Source: Stenotrophomonas sp. SAU14A_NAIMI4_5
GTDB lineage: Bacteria > Pseudomonadota > Gammaproteobacteria > Xanthomonadales > Xanthomonadaceae
Assembly: GCF_003086795.1 (NCBI RefSeq)
Contig: NZ_CP026003.1
Coordinates: 4,283,531 to 4,347,530 of the forward strand
Length of the DNA: 64,000 nucleotides
Direction: 5' to 3'
Both the position numbers and the translations under genes were made by a program. Within the stretch, counting starts at the first letter, position 1. Each line of letters begins with the position of its first letter. The notes under the pieces were generated by a model, which ran no database searches, was not told where the DNA came from, and was given only the letters and a program-made list of their open reading frames with translations. This document shows positions 42,388 through 49,593 of the stretch, piece by piece.

Positions 42388-42391
<4 letters not shown>

Positions 42392-43686
42392 GGCCTGCGC
42401 CGCTGCTGCTGGTCCTGCTGGCTGCCTGGGCCGCGCTGGGCGGCGTGGTGCTGGCCGGCCTGCTGCCGCACTGGAGCTGGGCCGTGGCCGGTGCGCTGGT
42501 GGCTGCGCTGGCACTGGCCGATCTGTGGCGGCAGTGGCGACGTGCATCGCCGCAGGTACAGCGCCAGGTGCCCGAGGCGCTGGCACTGGGCGTGCGCCGC
42601 GAGATCGGCCTGCGCCTGTTCGCCGAGCAGCCGATGCAGGTGCAGGTGTTCGATCGCGTGCCCGGCGGCTGGCCGCTGGAAGGATTGCCGCAGCGCCTGC
42701 AGCTGCGCGCCGGCCACGCCAGCATCCTGCACTACCAGGTGCAGCCGCAGCAGCGCGGGCGCTTCCAGTTCGACGGCGTGGACGTACGCATCCGCTCGCC
42801 GTGGCGGCTGTGGTGGCAGCAGCGCACGCTGCCGCCGGTGCTGGACGTGCGGGTCTATCCCAACTTCGTGCCGCTCACCCGCTTCGCGTTGTTCAGTGCC
42901 GACCAGGCCTCGCGCCTGGTGGGCGCACACGTGAAGCGCCGCCGTGGTGAAGGCACCGATTTCCACCAGATGCGCGAGTACCGCGTCGGTGACAGCCTGC
43001 GCCAGCTGGACTGGAAGGCCACCGCCCGCGCGCGCAAGCTGATCTCACGCGAATACCAGGACGAGAAGAACCAGCAGCTGCTGCTGATGCTCGACAGCGG
43101 CCGGCGCATGCTGGCCAGCGAAGGCGGCCTCTCGCACTTCGACCATGCCTTGAACGCATCGCTGGTGGTGGCTTACCTGGCGTTGCGCCAGGGCGATGCC
43201 GCCGGCCTGTTCGCGGTGGGTGGCGAACGCCGCTGGGTGGCGCCGCAGCGCGGCATGGGCACGGTGGAACACCTGCTGCGCGCCAGTTACGACCTGCAGC
43301 CGCAGGCCGTGGCCACCGACTATCTGGCCGCCGCCACCGAAGTCTCGCTGCGGCAGCGCCGGCGTGCGCTGGTGATGCTGGTCAGCAACGTGCGCGACGA
43401 AGACATCGAAGACCTGCTGGCCGCCGTGCGCCTGCTGCAGCGCCGCCATCTGGTGTGCGTGGCCAGCCTGCGCGAACGCGAACTGGATACCGCGCTGGAG
43501 GGCGAGGTGCACACGCTGGAAGACGCCGCCCAGGCAGGTGCCGCCGCGCTGTACCTGCAGCAGCGCGCGAAGGCGCATGAAGCGCTGCGCAGCGAGAAGG
43601 TGATGGTGCTGGACGTGACCGCCGACGCCCTGCCTGCCGCGCTGGTGGAACGGTATCTGGCCGTGAAGCGCGAAGGGCTGCTGTAA
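42388..43686 (+). CDS. DUF58/vWA-like protein, partner of MoxR
   Basis: A 432-residue protein with two N-terminal helices (residues about 1-45). The DUF58 signature is GTDFHQMREYRVGDSLRQLD and WKATARARKLISREY at about residues 190-225, followed by LLMLDSGRRM, a degenerate MIDAS-type start of a von Willebrand A domain. DUF58 proteins are the usual partners of MoxR ATPases. The last 133 bp (from 43554, encoding the final 43 residues QQRAKAHEAL...KREGLL) are copied twice downstream (43856-43988 and 44158-44290). Confidence 0.92.
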
Positions 43687-44424
43687 CGGGTAGCGCCGGG
43701 CCATGCCCGGCGGATGGGGAACCACCGCTGCGCTCGCCGGGCATGGCCCGGCGCTACCGGCACACCGCCCTGGTTCGCGAACGCTCTGGTAGGTGCCAAC
43801 CTTGGTTGGCACGAAACCCAAGGCAAACAGCTGCCGGCCAGCGGCCGGCACTACCCCTGCAGCAGCGCGCGAAAGCGCACGAAGCACTGCGCAGCGAGAA
43901 AGTGATGGTGCTGGACGTGACCGCCGACGCCCTGCCTGCCGCGCTGGTGGAACGGTATCTGGCCGTGAAGCGCGAAGGGCTGCTGTAACCGGTAGCGCCG
44001 GGCCATGCCCGGCGGATGGGGAACCACCGCTGCGCTCGCCGGGCATGGCCCGGCGCTACCGTCGAACCGCTCTGGTCCGCGACTGCTCTGATAGGTGCCA
44101 ACCTTGGTTGGCACGAAACCCAAGGCAAACAGCTGCCGGCCAGCGGCCGGCACTTCCCCTGCAGCAGCGCGCGAAAGCGTATGAAGCGCTGCGCAGCGAG
44201 AAGGTGATGGTGCTGGACGTGACCGCCGACGCCCTGCCTGCCGCGCTGGTGGAACGGTATCTGGCCGTGAAGCGCGAAGGGCTGCTGTAACGGGTAGCGC
44301 CGGGCCATGCCCGGCGGATGGGGAACCACCGCTGCGCTCGCCGGGCATGGCCCGGCGCTACCAGCACACCGCCCTGGTTCGCGAACGCTCTGGTAGGTGC
44401 CAACCTTGGTTGGCACAAAACCCA
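43554..44424. repeat. Three tandem copies of the DUF58 gene tail in a 302-bp repeat with SMAG elements
   Basis: A 133-bp block ending in the stop codon occurs at 43554-43686 (the real gene end), 43856-43988 and 44158-44290, with an exact 302-bp period. Each is followed by the same module: a SMAG pair (for example 43690-43712 and 43735-43757), a GTAGGTGCCAACC palindrome (43789-43812) and a TGCCGGCC palindrome (43832-43854). The third module is cut off at about 44424. The extra tails have no start codon or ribosome site of their own. Copy 2 differs from copy 1 in the variable stretch only at third codon positions; copy 3 has one His-to-Tyr change. Confidence 0.95.
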
Positions 44425-44433
44425 CGCCGCCGG

Positions 44434-45090
44434 TTACGCGGCCGCCAGCAATCGCCGCTGCAACCGTTCCACCGCACGCTGCAGCAGCACCCGGTTGCGG
44501 GCCAGCTTCATCCACTGCGGCAGGCGCGAGAACATCGAGGCGTTGTGCACGCCACCGTGCTCGCGCAGTGCCGACGTCGCGTAGTCATGCAGCACCTGCA
44601 GGTGCTCGGCGTTGTAGGCCCACAGCAGGCCCGCACGGGTGGGCTCCACCAACCGCAGCGGCAGGCCGAAATGCGGATCTGCCGGCTCGGCATCGCGCAA
44701 CGGGCAGACGCTGACCTTCACCTCGCTGGTGCGCCCGCACTGCACGCACTTGGCCGGCAGCACCTCGGGCACGGCCGTGGAGGCCGACGGTCGATGCTGG
44801 TGCACGCACACCCACTGGTGACCGCAGTAACCGCACGGGCGGCGGCCATCAATGCGCACCGCGCCCACCCAGGCGCCGCTGTCCAGCGCCACGCTGCAGC
44901 CGGTGCAACGGAAGCGCGCCGTCCAGCGGTGAGGCTGCCAGCTGGCGACCACCCAGCCCGGCGTGTCACAGCGATGGCAGCGCACCGCCACGCGCCCGGC
45001 GAAGGCGTGCAGCGTGCGGCCATCATCGAAGTGCCGCCCCGGCACCGGCGTCGTCCGCCCGCGCCGGCCCAAGGGCCGCCGCACCGCCAT
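44434..45090 (-). CDS. Zinc-ribbon hypothetical protein
   Basis: A 218-residue protein with three cysteine pairs spaced like zinc ribbons (CHRC/CTGC at about residues 38-65, CGYC at about 86, CVQCGRTSEVKVSVCPL at about 115-131) and a helical C-terminus rich in Arg (LARNRVLLQRAVERLQRRL). No signal peptide. It begins one base from the stop of the YgiC-like gene, so it is co-expressed with the YgiB/YgiC-type pair. Its role is unknown; it could bind nucleic acid or act in metal-dependent regulation. Confidence 0.75.
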   Translation of the reverse strand: MAVRRPLGRRGRTTPVPGRHFDDGRTLHAFAGRVAVRCHRCDTPGWVVASWQPHRWTARFRCTGCSVALDSGAWVGAVRIDGRRPCGYCGHQWVCVHQHRPSASTAVPEVLPAKCVQCGRTSEVKVSVCPLRDAEPADPHFGLPLRLVEPTRAGLLWAYNAEHLQVLHDYATSALREHGGVHNASMFSRLPQWMKLARNRVLLQRAVERLQRRLLAAA

Positions 45091-49440: not shown

Positions 49441-49582
49441 TGCCGGCCAGCGGCCGGCACTACCCGTGCTGGTTGGTTACGGTGCCATGCGTGCTGGGGT
49501 CAGAGCCCTTCCTGCGGAAGGGATCCGACCCCGGGGTCGCGGCATGGGGTCGGATCCCTTCCGCAGGAAGGGCTCTGACCCC
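49441..49582. repeat. SMAG element plus an inverted pair of GGGGTC palindromes
   Basis: TGCCGGCC-type SMAG at 49441-49463, then GGGGTCAGAGCCC...GACCCC at 49496-49532 and its reverse-oriented partner at 49546-49582, 13 bp apart. The dinG gene ends 12 bp further on. Confidence 0.85.
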
Positions 49583-49593
49583 ACCGGCGCGGC

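Follow-up and report, generated by a model that had tools for sequence, protein, structure and literature searches.

A 302-bp tandem array of DUF58 gene ends and SMAG palindromes in a Stenotrophomonas genome, and its probable origin in duplication between short direct repeats

Array architecture at the DUF58 locus

The 64,000-nucleotide stretch of Stenotrophomonas sp. SAU14A_NAIMI4_5 that we analysed (the window) contains a DUF58 gene, a tandem array that begins inside the 3′ end of that gene and a convergent gene downstream (Table 1). TRF resolved the array as 2.9 copies of a 302-bp unit with 94% matches and a score of 1623, against 126 for the next best repeat in the rest of the window, and a repeat search returned three copies at spacings of 302 and 302. 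Both confirm the initial annotation in that the final 133 bp of the gene, including its TAA stop, recur head-to-tail at exact 302-bp intervals in all three copies.

Each unit runs from the gene tail through a SMAG dimer to a second GTAG-type palindrome; a further SMAG follows in units 1 and 2 but not in unit 3. The inverted 24-bp REP arms of the dimer, 22 nt apart and 100% complementary, are present three times in the array. The palindromes are GTAG-tagged and fit GTAGTGCCGGCCGCTGGCCGGCA or its relatives, the fourth palindrome of unit 1 as the reverse complement and the dimer of the same unit beginning with GGTAGCGCCGGGC. The match of copy 3 ends at about 44424, without the last SMAG, so that the earlier description of the same four palindromes in every copy holds for copies 1 and 2 and not for copy 3.

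Table 1 Features of the DUF58 locus (window positions) and of the other gene-tail arrays discussed (handles and positions as given)
Feature	Position	Strand	Basis
DUF58 gene, 432 aa; working copy and source of tail 1	42388..43686	+	ORF; PF01882 DUF58, E 1.2e-29
Tandem array, whole	43554-44424		TRF, 64-kb window
Array unit 1; gene tail 43554-43686	43554..43855	+	TRF and repeat search
CCTGCAGCA, homology at left border of the unit, intragenic; recurs at 43856 and 44158	43554..43562	+	Comparison with single-copy loci of G066 and G067
SMAG dimer of unit 1; 24-bp arms 43689-43712 and 43735-43758, 100% complementary	43689..43758	.	Repeat search
Third palindrome of unit 1, GTGCCAACCTTGGTTGGCAC, behind GGTAG	43793..43812	.	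Sequence and repeat search
Fourth palindrome of unit 1; holds the SMAG consensus of PMC2613905 as reverse complement	43832..43855	.	Sequence
Array unit 2; gene tail 43856-43988 (four silent changes); SMAG dimer 43991-44060	43856..44157	+	
Divergent spacer of unit 2	about 44062-44091		
Array unit 3, right-truncated; gene tail 44158-44290 (one silent change, H>Y); SMAG dimer 44293-44362	44158..44424	+	
Convergent gene downstream of the array, 218 aa, without Pfam match	44434..45090	-	ORF, Pfam
Different tail array at the DUF58 locus; in G042 three extra tails at spacings of 147, 172 and 172, first tail copy shortened	L032:4296-4900 (S. maltophilia IAM 12423) and L008 (G042)		
pgi array, this genome; three tails with SMAG dimers, 159-bp spacing; last codons R, S, G	L274:1050-3100 (G000:C1:1801050-1803100)		
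HutD array in G066; tail nine times, 172-bp spacing, palindromes between	L345:2040-3500		
183-aa gene; repeated tail only about 21 bases	G000:599766-600317		
SseB-like gene; tail (~30 bp) repeated 313 bp downstream	L246:15941-16800 (G000:C1:1255941-1256800)		

Differences between the copies

Alignment of the copies bore out the report that tails 1 and 2 differ at four codons (AAG/AAA, CAT/CAC, GCG/GCA and AAG/AAA), all at third positions and all silently. The CAT>TAT change ascribed to copy 3 is likewise present and alters the residue (H>Y), and the list given for that copy was incomplete, the first AAG>AAA being common to copies 2 and 3. All tail differences are confined to the first 49 of the 133 bases. 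A further ten differences between copies 1 and 2 lie beyond the tail, giving 14 sites in total, and eight of these ten are packed into a 30-base stretch (offsets 206-235) that separates the SMAG dimer from the following palindrome. The differences of copy 2 are clustered (permutation p about 0.0006), which makes scattered point mutation unlikely as their source; no match to the divergent spacer within 3 mismatches was found in the other 90 genus genomes.

The non-random differences had been taken as a sign that copy 2 was once a working gene end. All four of its tail changes are indeed silent (p 0.012-0.022), and with the change of copy 3 added the count is four of five (p 0.04-0.08); both ranges assume an expected silent share of 33, 36 or 38.5%, the computed shares being 30 to 39% by locus and transition weight. 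We regard this pattern as weak evidence that copy 2 formerly worked.

Comparison with DUF58 loci across the genus

One reading of the array, that of the initial annotation, is that the working 3′ end has been repeatedly replaced by incoming alleles through recombination and that the leftover tails record earlier ones. We compared the copies with working DUF58 tails from 89 of 91 genus genomes (G077 and G079 were left out), with one genome per species. The array junction, with 3 mismatches allowed, is present in one of the 91 genomes, this one, and in none of the other 90. For tail arrays at the locus, the downstream sequence compared was 18 nt in G034 and 117 nt in G076, too short to support the absence of arrays in those two. 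The proposed count of tail copies, made over species, thus gave a single bearer of this array, together with a different array at the same locus in G042.

The expectation that copy 2 or copy 3 would match the working end of another genome failed among these species, each represented by one genome rather than by several strains: the four-site haplotype of copy 2 and the T that gives copy 3 its TAT are each found in 0/89 working tails. Taken one by one, the copy 2 states are each shared by between 3 and 39 of 88 other working genes, and the whole haplotype of copy 2 could sit in an unsampled strain. G013, the sister species and the closest by DUF58 protein, equals copy 1 at all four variable sites and G066 at three, and the working end therefore looks ancestral and copy 2 derived, which is the opposite of what older tails left behind would predict.

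Over the full 133 bases, the closest working tail to copies 2 and 3 is that of their own gene, with 4 and 2 differences and 7 and 6 for the next best. The first 49 bases point the other way for both: copy 2 has 2 differences each to G042 and G084 versus 4 to its own gene, and copy 3 has 1 to G024 versus 2. TAA ends all three tails and is absent from the six relatives tabulated; no tail site is private to this genome singly, TAA being a combination. Two of the leftover DUF58 tails in G042 have GCC and CGC, the codons of the working end in G043, at places that read GCG and CGT in the G042 gene itself; the same two also carry E>K and P>S, which are in no working gene.

Gene-tail arrays at other loci

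We searched a sample of 2.0 of the 4.57 Mb of the same genome and found 37 merged tandem arrays (period at least 40, at least 75% matches), 28 of them with a unit containing a perfect stem of at least 7 bp. A duplicated tail lies within 1.2 kb downstream for 5 of 1,456 predicted genes. The tails of pgi, a HutD gene and a gene of 183 aa are duplicated, each with a GTAG-tagged hairpin flagged at most 80 bp away; the gene for a Laminin_G_3 protein at 73321 has palindromes between its tails, but none flagged within 80 bp; and at an SseB-like gene, where no hairpin was flagged, a small ORF lies between the tail copies, an arrangement that resembles insertion of a segment at the end of the gene.

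In the 2.0-Mb sample, tail duplication showed no significant association with the presence of a flagged hairpin at most 80 bp away (3/340 genes with one and 2/1116 without; Fisher p 0.087). Head (5′-end) duplications, counted as a control, affect 6/1456 genes versus 5/1456 for tails, which at face value would mean that gene tails are not special; the control is unreliable either way because each start was set at the earliest start codon available, which may carry the gene into repeats.

For the pgi, HutD and Laminin_G_3 loci we compared the best 30 genomes by score each, and for DUF58 the 89 described above. Among the loci compared, tail arrays occur in other genomes at DUF58 in G042 (three extra tails), at pgi in G067 (one) and at HutD in G066 (eight). 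The third pgi tail of this genome departs from its own gene at 3 of 60 bases, and one of these differences alters the last residue (R>G). Against the working pgi end of G088, by contrast, it matches at every base (60/60). The same tail is consensus-like, with eight further genomes within 1 mismatch, and may be an unchanged ancestral state, retention of which suffices to explain the identity. In the second pgi tail, an I>V change is shared with 7 of 29 other working genes and the last residue, S, with none. The extra pgi tail of G067 has a spacing of 115 and a junction homology of 5 bases, read by eye.

In the HutD array of G066, two tail types alternate, apparently as a four-unit higher-order repeat; one is the working sequence and the other a variant that is largely silent, having at most four silent changes together with L>V, and V is also the residue in the working genes of G083 and G084. 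The arrays of G042 and G067 probably arose separately from those of this genome, since their spacings differ at the same loci, and the HutD arrays of this genome and G066 have a common left junction and are probably related.

When seven arrays at four loci are taken together, silent changes make up 16 of the 27 distinct codon changes (p 0.005-0.023), in a set of loci all chosen for having arrays and with the SseB-like and 183-aa genes left out. This test is weak, as the changes are unpolarised: because they were not placed on branches, part of the silent excess is expected from mutation of the working gene after duplication. Among the 11 non-silent changes, 5 give a residue found in a working gene and 6 a residue absent from all working genes compared, the codons of relatives having been placed by distance from the stop, which shifts the register wherever gene ends are of unequal length (several HutD genes). 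The pooled pattern fits a mixture in which some tails would keep or carry working alleles and tails would also decay.

Origin of the array

The array most probably arose by tandem duplication between two CCTGCAGCA sites and was later expanded and partly patched by exchange. Its junctions read SMAG-CCTGCAGCA-GCGCGCG and the gene itself has CCTGCAGCA-GCGCGCG, and in the single-copy loci of G066 and G067 the same SMAG flank is followed by CCTGCAGCA-ACCGCC. Under a simple composition model, junction homology of at least 9 bases has a chance probability of about 7e-5. Duplication from one of these 9-base direct repeats to the other accounts for the left and right borders of the unit alike, and the block therefore consists of the gene tail and the SMAG cluster (302 bp). 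The initial annotation had instead proposed replacement of the 3′ end through the flanking SMAG elements; the breakpoint that we found is the 9-base site and not a SMAG.

In this lineage, the duplication would have run from the CCTGCAGCA that opens the last 133 bases of the DUF58 gene to the CCTGCAGCA just past the last downstream SMAG. A third copy would have come from unequal exchange between the now-long repeats, and copy number could keep changing. The copy joined to the gene body is the one that works, and the other tails would be passengers that drift, are patched by exchange with each other or with the gene, or retain states that the gene has lost. We infer the order of these events, slippage or RecA-type exchange as their route, and any part that SMAG hairpins had in the breaks.

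Short-homology tandem duplication is a general mechanism that yields a unit bounded by a short direct repeat; the DUF58 unit is likewise so bounded, and we identified no difference. The substrate for such a duplication is not rare, because 18 of 89 genomes, including this one, have a site of the type ACTACC..TGCAGCA or TGCAACA no more than 600 nt from the stop. Tail duplications with other units, at DUF58 in G042 and at pgi in G067, also count in its favour, as do the presence of the junction in this genome alone among the 91, the closeness of copies 2 and 3 to their own gene over 133 bases and the TAA common to all three tails. Several observations count against it: the exact ancestor is unsampled, the SMAG dimer of this genome corresponds to a monomer in G066 and G067, and G013 has other repeats at the locus, though CCTGCAGCA is present there too; to these we add the lack of any singly private tail site, the nearness of copies 2 and 3 to other species across their first 49 bases and the spacer of copy 2, without a source within 3 mismatches in the other 90 genomes. 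As regards slippage, four SMAG loci were reported to be unchanged in three strains subcultured for 5 days (PMC2613905).

Alternative explanations

Successive replacement of the working end by incoming alleles is an unlikely account of the DUF58 array. By comparison of whole haplotypes it is not supported at this locus, where copy 1 looks ancestral and neither leftover tail recurs among the 89 working ends; mutation of the working gene after duplication would likewise be expected to yield a silent excess; and 6 of the 11 non-silent changes give residues that no compared working gene uses. What keeps it alive as a minority reading is the comparison over the first 49 bases together with the arrays at pgi and HutD, which partly uphold the idea of leftover tails as past alleles; the silent changes of copy 2, the codons that G042 tails share with G043 and the pooled count are also in its favour. 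Natural competence, which bears on the entry of foreign alleles, is described as unknown in S. maltophilia (PMC3686654).

That a REP transposase (RAYT) copied the SMAG dimer and the adjoining gene tail as a mobile unit is very improbable: GTAG REPs have been hypothesised to be RAYT-mobilised (PMC3733652), and the genome has six Y1_Tnp (PF01797) matches over the cut-off, but the left border of the unit is a 9-base direct repeat inside a coding gene and not a SMAG border, and among the matches listed there is no further tail-bearing match in the genome, the junction being confined to the array, so that neither borders at REP ends nor dispersed copies were seen. The six Y1_Tnp places, on G000:C1, are possible REP-associated transposases, with RAYT and IS200/IS605 types unsorted. 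Repeats of 302 bp can be mis-assembled, and an artefact of this kind had been raised as grounds for rejecting the array, yet it is very unlikely because the genome is one contig of 4,570,883 bp and copies 1 and 2 differ at 14 sites.

Relation to known arrays and implications

In 2008, SMAG tandem arrays that include flanking DNA were described in S. maltophilia, with strain-variable copy number, and used for MLVA typing; in the available text of that paper (PMC2613905), monomeric or dimeric SMAGs lie in tandem and unit length depends on the locus. The DUF58 array resembles these in the head-to-tail reiteration of SMAGs with flanking DNA, here with a 302-bp period in 2.9 copies, whereas the units given there are 50 and 103 bp with flanks of 26 and 31 bp, compared with 302 bp and 133 coding bases here. 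Coding tails are unmentioned in that text, although the earlier loci may have had them. Ordered tandem REPIN clusters including their flanks were reported in 2011 from Pseudomonas fluorescens SBW25 (PMC3116915), and the DUF58 array similarly holds a hairpin-capable inverted REP pair in tandem with flanks; those clusters belong to another genus, and gene tails are unmentioned in the portion of that account available. Among the matches listed, no paper on gene tails inside SMAG arrays was found by title or abstract opening. The DUF58 array is an ordinary SMAG-type tandem repeat, its 133-base reach into the gene being a difference of extent.

What may give such arrays wider interest is that they take in the ends of genes at several loci (DUF58, pgi, HutD and others), so that in REP-rich intergenic regions a shift in copy number can be coupled to an altered protein C terminus. 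The pgi array hints that leftover ends can keep gene versions lost from the working copy. The pgi and HutD arrays are what suggests a broader, still doubtful reading, in which gene-tail SMAG arrays would recur in this clade, leftover tails would store past or foreign C-terminal alleles and unequal exchange could swap the working end. Leftover tails may matter as snapshots of alleles, and the pgi tail, equal to the working allele of another species over 60 bases, makes that idea testable with strain collections.

Elsewhere in the window, a 50-bp unit (TGGGGTCAGAGCCCTTCC...) stands in two copies at 49495-49593, and its motif recurs in the genome sample. The minus strand at 33972-34087 matches the Xanthomonadaceae sRNA asX1 (RF02235, 94.8 bits).
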